Notes under the pieces: generated by a model
The model's database searches: none
Seen by the model: the letters and a program-made list of their open reading frames with translations, nothing else
What the model was told of the DNA's origin: nothing
Program-made: the position numbers and the translations under genes
Source of the DNA: Candidatus Glassbacteria bacterium RIFCSPLOWO2_12_FULL_58_11
GTDB lineage: Bacteria > Gemmatimonadota > Glassbacteria > GWA2-58-10
Length of the DNA stretch: 34,323 nt
Assembly: GCA_001780825.1 (NCBI GenBank)
Contig: MFIX01000140.1
Location: 1 to 34,323 of the forward strand
Direction of reading: 5' to 3'
Shown here: piece by piece, positions 2,998 through 13,174 of the stretch
Layout of the letters: each line of letters opens with the position of its first letter
Numbering within the stretch: the first letter of the stretch is position 1

Positions 2998-4257
2998 ATG
3001 AACTATCATATTGCTGATCCATCCCTGGCCAAGGGTGGCAAGAAAAGAATCGATTGGGCCGAGCACGATATGCCGGTGCTGCGCCTCGTGCGCGGGCGGT
3101 TCCAGAAGGAGAAGCCGCTGGAAGGCGTAAAAATGAGCGCCTGTCTGCATGTGACCGCCGAGACTGCGAACCTGTGCCGTACGCTGGCCGCGGGCGGCGC
3201 GGACCTGGTCCTGTGCGCCTCGAACCCGCTCAGCACCCAGGATGATGTCGCCGCCTCGCTGGTAAAAGATGATAAGTTCAAAGTATTCGCAGTCCGCGGT
3301 GAGGACCACGATACCTATTACTCCCATATTCACAGCGCGATCAAGCACAAGCCGACAATCACGATGGACGATGGGGCGGACCTGGTCTCCACGATACATG
3401 CCGAGTATCCCGCCCTGGTGGGCAAGATCATGGGCAGTATGGAAGAGACTACGACCGGGGTGATCCGCCTCAGAGCGATGGCCGTCGATGGGGCGCTGAA
3501 AATCCCGGTGTTCGCGGTCAATGATGCGCAGACCAAGCACCTGTTCGACAACCGCTACGGCACAGGCCAGTCAACTGTGGATGGGATTATCCGGGCGACG
3601 GATATTCTGCTGGCCGGAAAAAATGTGGTCGCCGCCGGATACGGTTTCTGCGGGCGCGGTTTTGCCATGCGCGCCCGCGGCATGGGCGCCAATGTCATTA
3701 TTACCGAGGTTGACCCGATCAAAGCGATCGAGGCGGTGATGGATGGCTACCGGGTGATGACCATGAAAGAAGCCGCGGTTGTCGGCGACCTGTTCTGCAC
3801 CCTGACCGGCGATATCAATGTTGTACGCCCCGAGCATTTCAAGCTGATGAAGGATGGAGCGATTGTCTGCAACAGCGGACATTTCAATGTCGAGCTCGAT
3901 CTGAAGGGCCTGGCCAAGCTGGCGGTCAAGGTCGAAAAGAACGTACGAAAAGAAGTGGATGCTTATTATCTCAAGGATGGCCGGAAAATTTTCGTACTCG
4001 GTGAGGGCCGGCTGATCAACCTGGCCGCTGCCGAGGGCCATCCGGCCTCGGTGATGGATATGAGCTTCGCGGTCCAGGCCCTGACCACCGAGTACGTGGT
4101 CAAAAACCACAAGAAATTCAGCCCCCGGGTGTATGAGGTCCCGGAAGCGATCGATAACTGGGTCGCCGAGCTGAAGCTGAAATCCATGGGCGTCTCGATT
4201 GATAAGCTTACCCCGGAACAGGTAAAATATCTCGCCAGCTGGACCATGGGAACCTGA
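2998..4257 (+). CDS. ahcY: Adenosylhomocysteinase (S-adenosyl-L-homocysteine hydrolase)
   Basis: Full-length family similarity: [64 protein letters not shown]. Confidence 0.95.
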
Positions 4258-5034: not shown

Positions 5035-5063
5035 TTGACTGGTCCGCGGGGTTTGATTAAAAT
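5035..5063 (+). promoter_or_regulatory. Sigma70-like promoter of the aro/leu operon
   Basis: TTGACT (5035-5040), 17 nt, TAAAAT (5058-5063); TSS expected about 5070. Confidence 0.75.
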
Positions 5064-5130
5064 AAGATTATTCGGAAGGATACGGGATTCTGGAACAGGC
5101 TTCCCATTTGAATTGATGCTGGAGGTATCC

Positions 5131-5163
5131 GTGTTGTACTTGTACCTTCTTTTTCCAATCTAA
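5131..5163 (+). CDS. Leader peptide MLYLYLLFPI (GTG start) of an attenuator
   Basis: SD GGAGG (5121-5125), 5-nt spacer, GTG TTG TAC TTG TAC CTT CTT TTT CCA ATC TAA. An in-frame ATG at 5116 could give MLEVSVLYLYLLFPI. Confidence 0.65.
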   Translation: MLYLYLLFPI

Positions 5164-5171
5164 TATTTGAT

Positions 5172-5240
5172 TTGATAGTGAGGGAAGGGACTGCCGGAAC
5201 TCGATCAAAAGTGCAATCAAGCGTGACCCGCCACTATCAA
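5172..5240 (+). promoter_or_regulatory. Antiterminator pairing
   Basis: TTGATAGTG (5172-5180) is the exact reverse complement of CACTATCAA (5232-5240), the 5' half of the terminator. GGG 5182-5184/CCC 5227-5229 extends it. Confidence 0.65.
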
Positions 5241-5257
5241 GCCGATAGTGGTTTTTT
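5231..5257 (+). terminator. Attenuator intrinsic terminator
   Basis: CCACTATC (5231-5238) AAGCC GATAGTGG (5244-5251) followed by TTTTTT, about 110 nt before the chorismate mutase ATG. Confidence 0.85.
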
Positions 5258-5368: not shown

Positions 5369-5665
5369 ATGGAAAACGGATTCGATGGCTGGCGGGATAA
5401 AATCGATGAGATCGACAAAAAACTGATCGAGCTTTTCAACAAGCGCGCGGAATACGCGATTGAAATCGGACGGCTCAAGAGAATCAAAGGCCTGCCGGTT
5501 TACGATCCGGAGCGGGAGAACATGATATACGAACAGTTGAAGCTGCGCAACCAGGGTCCGCTTTCCGATCCGGCCATCCGGCGCTTATTCGAGCGGATTA
5601 TCGACGAAACCCGCCGTCTCGAGCGCGAAATCTGTGAAACAGGGGGAGCGGGCGATGATAATTAG
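5369..5665 (+). CDS. Chorismate mutase (AroQ class)
   Basis: IDEIDKKLIELFNKRAEYAIEIGRLKRIKGLPVYDPERE ... GPLSDPAIRRLFERIIDETRRLE. Confidence 0.92.
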   Translation: MENGFDGWRDKIDEIDKKLIELFNKRAEYAIEIGRLKRIKGLPVYDPERENMIYEQLKLRNQGPLSDPAIRRLFERIIDETRRLEREICETGGAGDDN

Positions 5666-6674
5666 CATGCGCCACGATGCCTCCGAGCCGCAGATCCAGG
5701 CGGTGATCGAGAAACTCCAGAGCCTGAAGCTCGATGCGCACCGCTCGACCGGCCTCGACCGGACGATTATCGGCGCTATCGGCGATACCGCCCGGATCGA
5801 CACGCGGGATTTCGAGATTCTCGAGGGTGTCGATGACGTGGTGCGCATCTCCGCGCCCTACAAATTGGCCAGCCGCCAGTTCAAGCCTTCGGACACGGTG
5901 GTAAAAATCCGGGATGTGGCTATCGGGGGAAGGGAAGTGGTGGTCTCCGCCGGCCCCTGCTCGGTGGAAAGCCGCGAGCAGATCGATTTGATCGCCCGCC
6001 TGGTGGCCGCCGCAGGCGCGAAAATCCTGCGCGGTGGGGCTTTCAAGCCCCGCACCTCGCCTTATAGTTTTCAAGGCCTGGGCGAGGAGGGTTTGATAAT
6101 GATGCGCGAGGCCGCGGATAAATACGGCCTGGCTATCGCCAGCGAGGTGATGGACGCGAGCCAGATCGAGATGATGCTCCAGTACGTGGATATCTTTCAG
6201 GTAGGGGCGAGGAACATGCAGAATTTCACCCTCCTGCGCAGCCTGAGCAAGGTCAGCAAACCGGTACTTTTGAAAAGGGGGCTCTCGGCAACCATCGAGG
6301 AGTTACTGATGTCAGCCGAGTACATCCTTTCCGGGGGCAACACCCAGGTGATCCTGTGCGAGCGGGGGATTCGCACTTTCGAAACCTACACCCGCAACAC
6401 CATGGATATCTGCGCCATCCCGGTGGTCCATAAACTCAGCCACCTGCCGATTGTCGCTGACCCGAGCCACGGTACGGGCCTGCGCGACAAGGTGCTGCCG
6501 ATGGCGCGCGCGGCGATTGCCGCGGGGGCGGACGGCCTGCTGATCGAGGTCCATCACGAGCCGGACAAGGCGGTCAGTGACGGGGCCCAGAGCCTTTACC
6601 CCAATCAGTTCGACACACTGATGAAAGAGCTGGAAATAATCGCCCGGGCAATCGGCAGAACGCTCGCGGCCTGA
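5655..6674 (+). CDS. aroF: 3-deoxy-7-phosphoheptulonate synthase (DAHP synthase, type I-beta with N-terminal regulatory domain)
   Basis: [51 protein letters not shown] 5655 overlaps the end of the chorismate mutase gene. Confidence 0.94.
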   Translation: MIISMRHDASEPQIQAVIEKLQSLKLDAHRSTGLDRTIIGAIGDTARIDTRDFEILEGVDDVVRISAPYKLASRQFKPSDTVVKIRDVAIGGREVVVSAGPCSVESREQIDLIARLVAAAGAKILRGGAFKPRTSPYSFQGLGEEGLIMMREAADKYGLAIASEVMDASQIEMMLQYVDIFQVGARNMQNFTLLRSLSKVSKPVLLKRGLSATIEELLMSAEYILSGGNTQVILCERGIRTFETYTRNTMDICAIPVVHKLSHLPIVADPSHGTGLRDKVLPMARAAIAAGADGLLIEVHHEPDKAVSDGAQSLYPNQFDTLMKELEIIARAIGRTLAA

Positions 6675-6717: not shown

Positions 6718-6798
6718 ATGTTCGATTTCGCCATAAAAATTCGCTGGTTCTCAACTACCAGCTTGCGACTCCTCCCGCTGGATACGTGCCGCAGCTGA
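6718..6798 (+). CDS. Possible leader peptide upstream of leuA (MFDFAIKIRWFSTTSLRLLPLDTCRS)
   Basis: 26-codon ORF with an LRLLPL cluster. CTC CTC CC contains TCCTCCC, complementary to the leuA SD GGGAGGA (6861-6867). Its own SD is weak. Confidence 0.3.
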   Translation: MFDFAIKIRWFSTTSLRLLPLDTCRS

Positions 6799-6871: not shown

Positions 6872-8443
6872 ATGTCGAGTAAAAAACGGAAAATTATCAT
6901 TTTCGATACTACCCTGCGCGATGGCGAGCAAAGTCCCGGATGCAGCATGAATCTGGATGAAAAACTGGCCATGGCCCGCCAACTGGCCAGGCTCCAGGTC
7001 GATGTCATCGAGGCAGGGTTCCCGATCGCCAGCGACGGCGATTTCGAGGCGGTAAAGGCAATCGCCCAGCAGGTACGCAATGTCAGAGTGGCCGGCCTGG
7101 CCCGAGCGGTCAAGATCGATATCGATCGGGCCTGGGAGGCGCTGCAGTACGCCGCGCAGCCCCGGATCCACACTTTTATCGCCACCAGTGATATCCACCT
7201 CAAATATAAGCTGAAAAAAAGCCGCCAGGAGGTCCTGGATGCGGCCGTGGCCGCGGTGCAACTGGCCAAAAGCTATTGTGAGGACGTTGAGTTCTCCTGT
7301 GAGGATGCCGGCCGCACTGAGGACGATTACCTGGCGCAGGTGGTCAAGGCGACTATCGAGGCCGGCGCGACCACGATCAACATTCCCGACACGGTCGGCT
7401 ATGCGATCCCCAGCGAATGGGGCGAGCGTATGAAGCGACTGGTTAAGAACGTGCCTGAGCTGACCAGGAAAGCGGTGCTCAGCACGCATTGCCACAACGA
7501 TCTCGGCCTGGCGGTGTCCAATTCAATCGCCGCCTGCCAGAACGGCGCGGGCCAGGTGGAGTGCACGATCAATGGAATCGGCGAGCGGGCCGGCAATGCC
7601 TCGCTGGAGGAGTTCGTGATGGCCTGCCGGACCAGGCACGATCTGCTCGATTTCACCACAGGGATCGTGACCGAGGAAATTTATCCCACCAGCCGCCTGC
7701 TCACCAATACCACCGGAGTATTCGTGCAGCAGAACAAGGCAGTTGTCGGCAAGAACGCATTCGCCCATGAGGCCGGAATCCATCAGGACGGGATGCTGAA
7801 AGATTCGCTGACCTACGAGATCATGACTCCGCAATCGGTGGGGATAGTCAAGAGCAACATCGTCCTGGGAAAACATTCCGGCCGCCACGCCCTGGCCAAC
7901 CGGTTCTCCGAGCTGGGCTTTGATCTGGAGAAGACCGAGCTGGACAAGGCTTACAAACTGTTTACCAAGCTGGCGGACCAGAAGAAAAACATATCGGATG
8001 AGGACCTGCTGGCGATTATTCAGGATGGGATCCAGAATATTCCCGAAAAATGGCACATGAAGTACATCCAGACCATAGGCGGCAACCAGGTGGTCAGCTC
8101 GGCCGTGGTAGTCCTGATTGATATGGACACCAGCACCGAGGTCAAAGACGCTGCTCCCGGAGATGGGCCGGTCAGCGCCCTCTGTAAATCGATTGACCGG
8201 ATTGTCGGCCTTGAAGGTACGGTCACTGACTACCAGGTGCATTCGATCACCGAGGGCCGGGATGCGGTCGGCGAGGTGTTCCTGCGCGTTACTTTCGATA
8301 AAGTCGAGTATATGGGCAAAGCGGCGAGCACCGATGTGATGGATGCGACCGCCAGAGCTTATCTCAATGCGGTCAATAAGGCCTTGTACGCCAGGCAAAA
8401 CAGCAAGTCGAAGAAACGGGACAGGCATGGGGCGGGAGTCTGA
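6872..8443 (+). CDS. leuA: 2-isopropylmalate synthase
   Basis: [60 protein letters not shown]. Confidence 0.96.
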
Positions 8444-8510
8444 AACCGGAGCCCGGTCCAGCCTGGACTCAATGAACGGAAAGGATAGATCAGTTAAAGG
8501 AGCCAGTCCG

Positions 8511-9908
8511 ATGGGTAAGACCATGTTTCAAAAAATCTGGGATGCGCATGTCGTCCACGAACAGGAGGGCATCACCATCCTCTATATCGACCGCCATCTG
8601 GTGCACGAGGTAACCTCTCCGCAGGCCTTCGAGGGCTTGCGGCTGACCGGCCGCAAAGTGCGCCGGCCTGAGTCTACCTATGCCGTACCGGACCACAACG
8701 TGCCGACCCGGGATCGCGACAAGGAGATCAGCGATCCCCTGTCCGCCAAACAGGTGAAAACCCTGCGCGACAACTGTCTTCAGTTCGGAATCACTCTCTT
8801 CGACATCGATGACATCCGTCAGGGTATCGTGCATGTGATCGCCCCTGAGCAGGGCCTGACCCTGCCCGGCATGACCATAGTCTGCGGGGATTCGCATACC
8901 GCCACCCACGGGGCATTCGGGGCGCTGGCTTTCGGGATCGGGACCTCTGAGGTGGAACACGTACTGGCCACGCAAACGTTGCAGCAGCGCAAACCCAACT
9001 CCATGTTAATCCGAGTCAACGGCACGCCGCGCGAGACTATCCGGCCGAAAGATGTCATCCTGGCGATAATCGGAAAAATCGGCACAGCCGGCGGCACGGG
9101 CTATGTGATCGAGTATGCCGGGGAGGTCGTGCGCCGGATGTCGATGGAAGGCCGGATGACTCTTTGCAACATGTCTATCGAGGCTGGAGCCCGGGCCGGG
9201 ATGGTGGCGCCGGATGAGACGACATACAAGTACCTCGAGAACCGGCCGTTCGCCCCGCGGGGCGAGCAGTTCGAGCGGGCGGTCGCGGCCTGGCGCACTC
9301 TGCCTTCCGATCCGGATGCCGCGTACGATAAAGTGGTCGACCTGGATATCGCGTATGTCAAGCCGCAAGTCACCTGGGGCACCTCGCCCGGCATGGTGAC
9401 CGATATCGATGGGAGCGTGCCCGATCCGGCTAAGATAACGGACCCCGCGCAGCGCAAGACCACTGAGCTGGCCCTCGAATACATGGGCCTGGAGCCGAAC
9501 ACTCCGATCCGGAACATCGCCCTGGACAAGGTGTTTATCGGTTCCTGCACCAATGCGCGGATCGAGGATTTGCGGGAAGTGGCGCAGTTCGTCAGGGGGC
9601 GGAAAGTGGCCGGCAGCGTGCAAGCCATGATCGTCCCGGGGAGCGGCCTGGTCAAAATGCAGGCCGAGCAGGAGGGTCTGGACAAAATATTTATCGAGGC
9701 GGGTTTCGAATGGCGGGATGCCGGCTGTTCAATGTGCCTCGCGATGAACGATGACCGTCTCCAGCCGGGTGAGCGCTGCGCCTCGACCAGCAACCGAAAT
9801 TTCGAGGGCCGTCAGGGTAAGGGCGGCCGGACCCACCTGGTGAGTCCGATTATGGCCGCCGCGGCCGCGCTGGCCGGGCATTTTACCGATCCACGGACCA
9901 CGAATTAG
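8511..9908 (+). CDS. leuC: 3-isopropylmalate dehydratase large subunit
   Basis: Aconitase family: [57 protein letters not shown]. Start at ATG 8511 rather than the ORF start 8343. Confidence 0.95.
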
Positions 9909-9948: not shown

Positions 9949-10575
9949 ATGAAACCATTTGTGAGACTGACCGCGCTGGCGGCCCTGCTCGACCGTCAGA
10001 ATGTCGATACAGACCAGATCATTCCAAAGCAGTACCTCAAGAAAATCGAGCGGACCGGCTTCGGCCGTCACTTGTTCCATGACTGGCGCTATCTGGATGA
10101 GGAAGAAACCCGGCCCAATCCGGATTTTGTTCTCAACCAGCCCCGCTACCGGGGGGCCGGGATCCTGGTCGCCCGGGACAATTTCGGCTGCGGATCGAGC
10201 CGTGAGCACGCTCCCTGGGCCTTGCAGGAATACGGATTCCGCAGTATAATCGCGCCCAGTTTCGCCGACATTTTTTATAACAACTGTCTTAAGAACGGTA
10301 TGCTGCCGGTGGCCCTGAAAACCGGCGAGGTGGAGCGGCTCTTTGCGGAGGTCGGCGCAACTGAGGGCTGCAAACTTACCGTTGACCTCGAGAAGCAGGA
10401 GGTTTCATCTCCGCAGGGCTTGTGTTTCAAGTTCGAGATTTCGCCATTCTCCAAGGATTGCCTGCTCAGGGGACTGGACGATATCGGCTGGACTTTACAG
10501 TTCGCGCAAAAAATCGAGGATTTCGAGAAGGTATATCACCGGGAGAATCCCTGGCTGCTGGTCGGCCGGAGTTAG
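9949..10575 (+). CDS. leuD: 3-isopropylmalate dehydratase small subunit
   Basis: [22 protein letters not shown] ... [13 protein letters not shown]. Confidence 0.95.
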
Positions 10576-10833: not shown

Positions 10834-11901
10834 ATGGCGGCGAGCTATAAGATCGCGGTTCTGCCGGGCGATGGCACCGGTCCGGAAGTGGTCGCGGAGG
10901 CCTTGAAAGTCCTGAAGGCGGCCGGGAAAAAATACGATGTAAAATTTAATTTTACCGAGTTCAACTGGGGCGGAGAAAATTACAAGGCCACCGGAATTGT
11001 GTTGCCGGAAGATGGCATCGAAACGCTGAAAAAGTACGACTCGATCCTGCTGGGTGCAATCGGCCACCCGGATGTCAAGCCGGGCATTCTGGAAAAAGGG
11101 CTGCTGCTGGCCCTGCGCTTCGGGCTAGACCACTATATCAACCTGCGCCCGGTAAAGCTCTACCCTGGTGTCGCCACCCCGATCCGGGACAAGGGCCCGG
11201 AGGATATCGACTTCGTGGTGGTGCGCGAGAACACCGAGGGTCTCTATGCCGGCGCGGGCGGAAACTTGAAAAAAGGCACGCCGGATGAGGTGGCGATCCA
11301 GACCTCGATCAATACCCGCAAGGGCGTGGAGCGCTGCGTGCGCTATGCTTTCGATTACTGCCGCAAGCGCGACAAACGCAAGACCCTGACCCTGGTGGCA
11401 AAAACCAACGTGCTGACCTATGCCTCGGACCTCTGGGAGCGCACCTTCCATGAGGTGGGAAAGAAAGACTATCCCGACATCAAGCGTGAGTACGCCCACG
11501 TGGATGCCACCTGCATGTGGATGGTGAAAAACCCCGAGTGGTTCGATGTAATCGTGGTGGAAAACATGTTCGGCGACATTATCACGGACCTGGGCGCCAT
11601 GGTCCAGGGCGGTATGGGAATCGCCGCCGGGGGCAACATCAATCCCCAGGGAGTTTCGATGTATGAGCCGATCGGCGGCAGCGCCCCCAAATACACCGGC
11701 AAGGGCGTGATCAACCCGCTGGCCGCTATCAGCGCGGCCCAGATGATGGTTCTGGACCTCGGGCTGGAAAAGATGGCGCACGATATCGAGCAGGCGGTAA
11801 TGTGGGCCTGCGCGAACAAGATTAAAAACCTCGGCGCGGGTAAGATGGGTTACAGCACCAGCGAGGTCGGCGACCTGATCGCTGGAAAGATTGACGGATA
11901 G
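10834..11901 (+). CDS. leuB: 3-isopropylmalate dehydrogenase (isocitrate/isopropylmalate dehydrogenase family)
   Basis: IAVLPGDGTGPEVVAEALKVL, VVRENTEGLYAGAGG, VENMFGDIITDLGAMVQGGMGIAAGGNINP, EPIGGSAPKYTGKG; assignment supported by leu operon context. Confidence 0.85.
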   Translation: MAASYKIAVLPGDGTGPEVVAEALKVLKAAGKKYDVKFNFTEFNWGGENYKATGIVLPEDGIETLKKYDSILLGAIGHPDVKPGILEKGLLLALRFGLDHYINLRPVKLYPGVATPIRDKGPEDIDFVVVRENTEGLYAGAGGNLKKGTPDEVAIQTSINTRKGVERCVRYAFDYCRKRDKRKTLTLVAKTNVLTYASDLWERTFHEVGKKDYPDIKREYAHVDATCMWMVKNPEWFDVIVVENMFGDIITDLGAMVQGGMGIAAGGNINPQGVSMYEPIGGSAPKYTGKGVINPLAAISAAQMMVLDLGLEKMAHDIEQAVMWACANKIKNLGAGKMGYSTSEVGDLIAGKIDG

Positions 11902-11942
11902 ACCTGACTAACTTGCTTTACCCTGACTGAAAGCGGCGCTTG

Positions 11943-12962
11943 ATGATTATTGTCATGCAGGAAAACGCCACCCGCGAGCAGATTGACCACGTGTTCGAGC
12001 GGGTGCGCGAGCTGGGTTACAACGTACATCCGATCTACGGCAAGCAGCGCACGGTGATCGGCGCGATCGGGGATGAGCGCGGCAAGTTCCGCCTGAAATC
12101 CCTCGAATCGGTCCCCGGAGTCGAATCGGTCATCCCAATCCTCAAGCCCTATAAGCTGGTCGGCCGGGAGCTCAAGAAAGAGAAAACCGTGGTCCGGGTG
12201 GGCGAGGATGTCGCTTTCGGCAGCAAGCAGTTCGTGATAATCGCCGGACCCTGTTCGGTGGAGAGCCGCGAACAGATTATCGAGACCGCTGAGCGCGTAA
12301 AAAAGGCTGGGGCCCGCATGCTGCGCGGCGGAGCTTTCAAGCCCCGAACCTCGCCTTACAGTTTCCAGGGTCTGGAGGAGGAAGGGCTTGAGCTGCTGGC
12401 CGAGGCCCGGGAAAAGACCGGACTCAAGATTGTCACCGAGGTGATCACGCCCCAGGACCTGCCCCTCGTCTCCAGTTACGCGGATGTCCTGCAGGTGGGC
12501 GCCCGCAACATGCAAAATTTCGCCCTGCTCAAGCAGATTGGCCAGCTCGACAAGCCGGTGCTGCTCAAGCGCGGGCTGTCGGCGACTATCAACGAGTTCC
12601 TGATGTCCGCCGAATATATCCTGAGCGAGGGCAACCGCAACGTAATCCTCTGCGAGCGCGGGATTCGGACTTTCGAAACCGCGACACGCAACACGCTGGA
12701 CCTCTCCGCGGTCCCGCTGATCCTGAAAATGAGCCATTTGCCGATAATTGTCGATCCGAGCCACGGGACCGGGGTGCCGGACCTGGTGGCGCCGATGTCC
12801 AAGGCGGCGGCGGCCGCGGGCGCGGATGGGGTCATTGTCGAGGTGCACAGCAACCCGGAAACCGCCCTTTCGGATGGCGAGCAGTCGCTGGACCCGGATG
12901 CTTTCGACCGGCTGGTGGGCGCGCTCAAGCCGATACTCAAGGCAGAGGGGCGTACGCTTTGA
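11943..12962 (+). CDS. aroF: Second DAHP synthase (type I-beta)
   Basis: [52 protein letters not shown]; paralogue of 5655..6674. Confidence 0.94.
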
Positions 12963-13145: not shown

Positions 13146-13174
13146 TTGACACCCGCCGCAGGCACTGATAAATT
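13146..13174 (+). promoter_or_regulatory. Sigma70-like promoter of proS
   Basis: TTGACA (13146-13151), 17 nt, TAAATT (13169-13174). Confidence 0.65.

Follow-up and report, generated by a model that had tools for sequence, protein, structure and literature searches.

The leaders of the ilvGMEDA and ilvBN operons carry Ile, Val and Leu codons together. Both are among the attenuated operons (PMC1183508), the leu leader of E. coli uses rare Leu codons (PMC1183508), and theory holds that mixing codons in a leader lowers its sensitivity to each amino acid (PMC1183508). In C. glutamicum a Phe-Tyr-Phe leader (AroR) lies before aroF and a four-Leu leader lies before leuA, as two separate leaders (PMC4046766). 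AroR responds to Phe and is unresponsive to Tyr (PMC11802643), so conserved codons that look like control codons need not all act. The same organism has a single regulator, LtbR, that ties leucine to aromatic (Trp) biosynthesis (PMC11802643). Our search of the literature, in which most subscription papers lay outside the coverage, turned up no account of an attenuator that combines Leu with Tyr or Phe.

The locus described here lies in a stretch of DNA of 34,323 nucleotides (the window) from a draft genome of 4.17 Mb. Its closest relatives in the contig collection are labelled Candidatus Glassbacteria, with one labelled Gemmatimonadales. The comparison set comprised six genomes of this family from five genera (G000, the genome of the window, and G001 to G005); because the six sequences are relatives, the conservation counts given below are not independent events. 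The leader in the window is made up of the following features:

5035 to 5063, plus strand: sigma-70-like promoter TTGACT-N17-TAAAAT (-35 at 5035-5040, -10 at 5058-5063; 10/12 match to consensus)
5121 to 5125, plus strand: Shine-Dalgarno sequence GGAGG of the leader reading frame, read directly
5131 to 5163, plus strand: leader reading frame MLYLYLLFPI, GTG to TAA, with four Leu, two Tyr and one Phe codon, the Leu codons being the rare TTG and CTT
5172 to 5184, plus strand: antiterminator 5' arm (region 2), with the core GATAGTG at 5174-5180 kept in 6/6 genomes (as GGTAGTG in one)
5231 to 5240, plus strand: region 3 (CCACTATCAA), the arm common to antiterminator and terminator
5231 to 5257, plus strand: intrinsic terminator CCACTATC-AAGCC-GATAGTGG-TTTTTT, conserved in 6/6 genomes

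An earlier note on this DNA, made from the sequence alone, had placed the promoter, Shine-Dalgarno sequence, leader and terminator at positions that proved correct base for base on direct reading, and its count of four Leu, two Tyr and one Phe codon among nine residues was also right. It had further claimed that antiterminator and terminator exclude each other through a 9-nt complement. This is confirmed, since every base of TTGATAGTG (5172-5180) is complementary to CACTATCAA (5232-5240) and the pairing through a shared arm recurs in all six genomes. Lack of conservation of the small reading frame, Shine-Dalgarno sequence or antiterminator among relatives, which that note had named as grounds against its reading, is not what we found. 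When the relatives are aligned, the reading frame, promoter, antiterminator arm and terminator are present in every genome and a clear Shine-Dalgarno sequence in four, the window included; it is similar in G003 and G005 and weaker in G004, and no clear one was seen in the leaders of G001 and G002 when those of the six family genomes were inspected. The promoter has the same -35 and -10 elements throughout, always separated by exactly 17 nt. The element is single-copy and syntenic in each of the six, and a covariance model of the leader, searched against 400 genomes of the phylum, returned precisely these six loci, one per genome, and none outside the Glassbacteria family. A scan of contigs with the DAHP synthase returned no Glassbacteria beyond the six; the Acidobacteria homologues that it recovered have no leu genes at that locus.

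We consider that the element is quite probably a ribosome-mediated transcription attenuator with Leu and Tyr (plus Phe) as control codons, placed ahead of a combined aro-leu operon. This reading draws on anatomy, conservation, coding selection, exclusive pairings, geometry and operon content, all computed in the analysis; from these we infer that the leader is translated, that ribosomes stall on it, that the terminator is read through and that the Leu and the aromatic codons are both relevant.

The leader peptides are MLYLYLLFPI in G000, ...RYLYLYFAGCRLRLIVRR in G001, MIRIELYLYLLFSDISGCQVVGP in G002, MCYLYWYLFIPG in G003, MYYLYLYLLFPA in G004 and MFYLYLYLFIPG in G005. Their core takes the forms LYLYLLF, LYLYLFI, LYWYLFI (G003, with Trp in place of one Leu) and RYLYLYF, which gives the consensus L-Y-L-Y-L-[LF]-[FI]; Tyr-x-Tyr-Leu is invariant (6/6) and Leu stands at two further core positions in 5/6. 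With the amino-acid usage of the window itself, the probability of at least seven Leu, Tyr or Phe among nine residues is about 7e-5, and when the same bases are shuffled, 0.7% of the resulting sequences attain it. Over the seven-codon core the six genomes show 45 synonymous against 29 non-synonymous codon differences, a synonymous share reached by none of 2000 column shuffles. Codon choice is skewed as well, with TTG, CTT and TTA making up 17 of the 21 Leu codons of the leaders as against 24% in the genes of the window; TTG and CTT, the main Leu codons of the leaders, supply about a fifth of the Leu codons in those genes.

The genes that follow the leader in the window are:

5369 to 5665, plus strand: chorismate mutase (NCBIfam TIGR01807, 0.15 bit under the curated cut-off)
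5634 to 6674, plus strand: DAHP synthase 1, aroF1 (NCBIfam NF006421/TIGR01361)
6872 to 8443, plus strand: leuA, 2-isopropylmalate synthase (NCBIfam NF002086)
8508 to 9908, plus strand: leuC (NCBIfam NF004016)
9949 to 10575, plus strand: leuD (NCBIfam NF002458)
10834 to 11901, plus strand: leuB, 3-isopropylmalate dehydrogenase (NCBIfam NF002898)
11940 to 12962, plus strand: DAHP synthase 2, aroF2, the final gene of the operon (NCBIfam NF006421)

The order ahcY, DUF151, leader, chorismate mutase, aroF1, leuA, leuC, leuD, leuB, aroF2 holds in 6/6 genomes as far as the contigs reach, and the complete run from chorismate mutase through aroF and leuACDB to aroF2 is found in each of the four genomes with a contig covering the operon. 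A promoter-like TTGACA-17-TAAATT lies at 13146-13174 of the window, ahead of proS, which suggests that the operon ends upstream of proS. The leader's Leu, Tyr and Phe codons fit the end products of an operon that encodes chorismate mutase, leuACDB and two DAHP synthases. The mix of Leu and Tyr codons to which the earlier note had drawn attention stands as a conserved property, with mostly synonymous changes and a matching operon content.

We compared this leader with those of other biosynthetic genes in the family and the phylum. Ahead of trpE, three family genomes carry leaders that contain Trp codons, AWVWRR (G000), HWAWHWR (G005) and HWIWRG (G003), each with a terminator after it; these are likely to be ribosome-mediated trp attenuators in Glassbacteria. 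Upstream of ilvB, an Ile/Val/Leu leader is present in three family genomes, for example GSLIILPIVGIGLLSLILAH. Elsewhere in the phylum, outside this family, a Leu-rich leader without Tyr often stands before leuA, for example MNAFALLLSLVLLLGLTLSRG, and several of these are followed by a terminator hairpin. An automatic scan of 24 loci in other families of the phylum detected no aromatic leader before the DAHP synthase gene (0/24). Across these predicted leaders codon content tracks operon content, and only the fused operon has the mix of Leu and Tyr. No other evidence speaks as strongly for a leader that would sense Leu as well as Tyr/Phe.

Several of these loci can be located more closely. The trpE leaders lie at L057:1167-1274 (the window's own genome), L055:1200-1301 and L056:1204-1299, with the terminator GCCGCGG. 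The ilvB leaders (L067, L069 and L070, reverse-complement, at about 1006-1201) read LIILPIVGxGLLxLILAH before acetolactate synthase, and their terminator is less clear. The Leu-rich leuA leaders of other families include L095:1297-1386, L099:1315-1407 and L096 to L098. An Oscillospiraceae MAG (L047:3793-3855) has the leader MKQFSKAYTYFYRFAFYFAG with a terminator hairpin at 3909 directly before a DAHP synthase gene, and this is likely a Tyr/Phe attenuator.

The alternative that survives best accepts the attenuator and supposes that it senses one amino acid, either Leu only or Tyr/Phe only, the remaining codons being neutral filler or serving timing. AroR, with its Phe-Tyr-Phe leader, acts on Phe limitation only (PMC11802643), the lowered sensitivity expected of mixed codons (PMC1183508) points the same way, and Leu is in any case common in proteins. 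Against it stand two Tyr and one Leu kept in 6/6 genomes with two more Leu in 5/6, Leu codons shifted strongly toward rare ones, Leu leaders elsewhere in the phylum that do without Tyr, and trp leaders of the family with clustered Trp codons. We regard sensing of a single amino acid as unlikely. If the leader were instead a TnaC-like nascent-chain arrest peptide, responding to a free metabolite and not to codon starvation, this too would explain why a short hydrophobic core keeps its amino acids while its codons change synonymously. The peptides, however, range from 10 to more than 20 residues and end variously in FPI, FPA, FIPG, FAGCR... or FSDISG..., unlike arrest peptides, and their residues correspond to the products of the operon, which leaves this explanation very improbable.

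The attenuator reading requires that the two pairings compete. The region 2:3 duplex is computed at -15 to -21 kcal/mol against -11 to -16 for the terminator over the six genomes; the two arms of the 2:3 pairing are spaced 53-57 nt apart in all six, and the intervening sequence is unconserved. As a single sequence the whole leader has an unexceptional minimum free energy (z -0.36), so that the evidence comes from comparison and not from folding energy. Covariation is slight, with one compensatory flank pair and two G-U changes, as read by hand from an alignment that is partly off in region 2 of G002; little of it is expected, since an arm that is used three ways should evolve slowly. Sensing by a protein or a tRNA (an RNA-binding protein or a T-box) of the conserved terminator and arm, with an incidental small reading frame, is the least probable of the explanations, since the near-invariance of GATAGTG and invariance of CCACTATC (the terminator 5' arm), beyond what stems alone need, is accounted for by the triple use of the same arm, the core of the reading frame is under coding selection, and no Rfam family, T-box included, was matched even at a relaxed threshold. 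The Rfam search gave nothing at the gathering threshold, and its one relaxed match was a chance hit to a CRISPR repeat (E 2.2).

For the attenuator itself we modelled the effect of the ribosome by folding only the RNA downstream of its edge; this replaced a model that allowed pairing across the ribosome and produced artefacts for G002 and G004. Stalling at the last Leu or Tyr codon would leave 11-18 nt free before region 2, and the 2:3 pairing then has a probability of 0.92-1.00 in nascent transcripts of all six genomes. With the ribosome on the stop codon the 2:3 pairing is abolished in G001 and G002 and falls to 0.55-0.80 in the other four, where the ribosome edge barely reaches region 2, lying 1-3 nt inside it. 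The earlier proposal that a ribosome at the TAA would reach into the antiterminator 5' arm is to this extent upheld, as an overlap by geometry with a partial effect on folding. At equilibrium, the full transcript of 4/6 genomes favours the terminator even with a stalled ribosome, and the switch must therefore be kinetic.

Attenuators of the classical trp type have a region 1:2 pause or protector hairpin, which the core switch does not need. The earlier note had offered CCTTC (5145-5149) and GAAGG (5184-5188) as a possible 1:2 stem. Both sequences are present and could pair; the stem itself is unsupported, its duplex energy being no better than that of shuffled leaders in five of the six genomes, the window included. 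If there is no such hairpin, read-through would be the default whenever the leader is not translated.

We propose that a ribosome would translate MLYLYLLFPI during transcription of the leader by RNA polymerase. When Leu-, Tyr- and Phe-tRNA are ample, the ribosome would arrive at the stop codon and crowd or cover region 2 (5172-5184), region 3 would then pair with region 4 and transcription would stop at 5257. A shortage of any one of these charged tRNAs would stall the ribosome before its front edge reached region 2. Region 2 could then pair with the newly made region 3, which would kinetically exclude the terminator and let the whole aro-leu operon be read. The outcome would be an OR gate, in which a shortage of Leu or of Tyr/Phe switches on both pathways, and we take such a gate for Leu or Tyr/Phe starvation to be the best reading of the leader sequence, one that the comparative evidence supports well.

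A second small reading frame, missed in the earlier note, lies between DAHP synthase 1 and leuA:

6718 to 6798, plus strand: small reading frame MFDFAIKIRWFSTTSLRLLPLDTCRS, ending in a stop codon

It is present in 6/6 family genomes (other loci at L035:2479, L032:6891 and L033:7755, and on the minus strand in L034 and L036), starts with M[FY] and carries [RK]W[FY]STTSL, with the variants STTGL in G003 and RFSTPSL in G005. Its codons show more synonymous change than shuffled columns. A strict pattern made from the motif matches here in the four genomes with an exact fit; its one match elsewhere among 301 genomes of the phylum falls inside an apparently unrelated long reading frame. No description of a small STTSL reading frame was found in the literature search, most subscription papers being outside its coverage. 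A role in controlling the leu genes separately is a guess. The combined proposal, in which a Leu and Tyr/Phe OR gate governs two unrelated fused pathways and the W[FY]STTSL reading frame adds a separate control of leuA, is tentative and rather doubtful.

If the proposed reading is true, the codon content of an attenuator can be rewritten to follow the fusion of operons, and the leader would be a naturally occurring RNA logic gate with two inputs, built from codons alone, with a bearing on the sensitivity that mixed-codon leaders can attain. The hybrid, trp and probably ilv leaders together suggest that ribosome-mediated attenuation is used in this uncultured lineage.

With the trp, his, leu and pheA attenuators of E. 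coli and Salmonella (PMC1183508) the Glassbacteria leader shares a leader reading frame with end-product codons, the competition of 2:3 with 3:4 pairing, a stop codon near or beyond region 2 and, with E. coli leu, the rare Leu codons. It differs in combining the codons of two unrelated pathways, in having no supported 1:2 hairpin and in its uncultured host. The ilvGMEDA and ilvBN leaders likewise join the codons of several amino acids; theirs, however, belong to one common pathway, whereas here Leu is joined with Tyr/Phe from separate pathways. AroR also precedes a DAHP synthase gene, but C. glutamicum uses two leaders, AroR and LeuA, where Glassbacteria has one joint leader. LtbR links leucine to Trp as a DNA-binding repressor, whereas the Glassbacteria element would link leucine to Tyr/Phe as an RNA attenuator.
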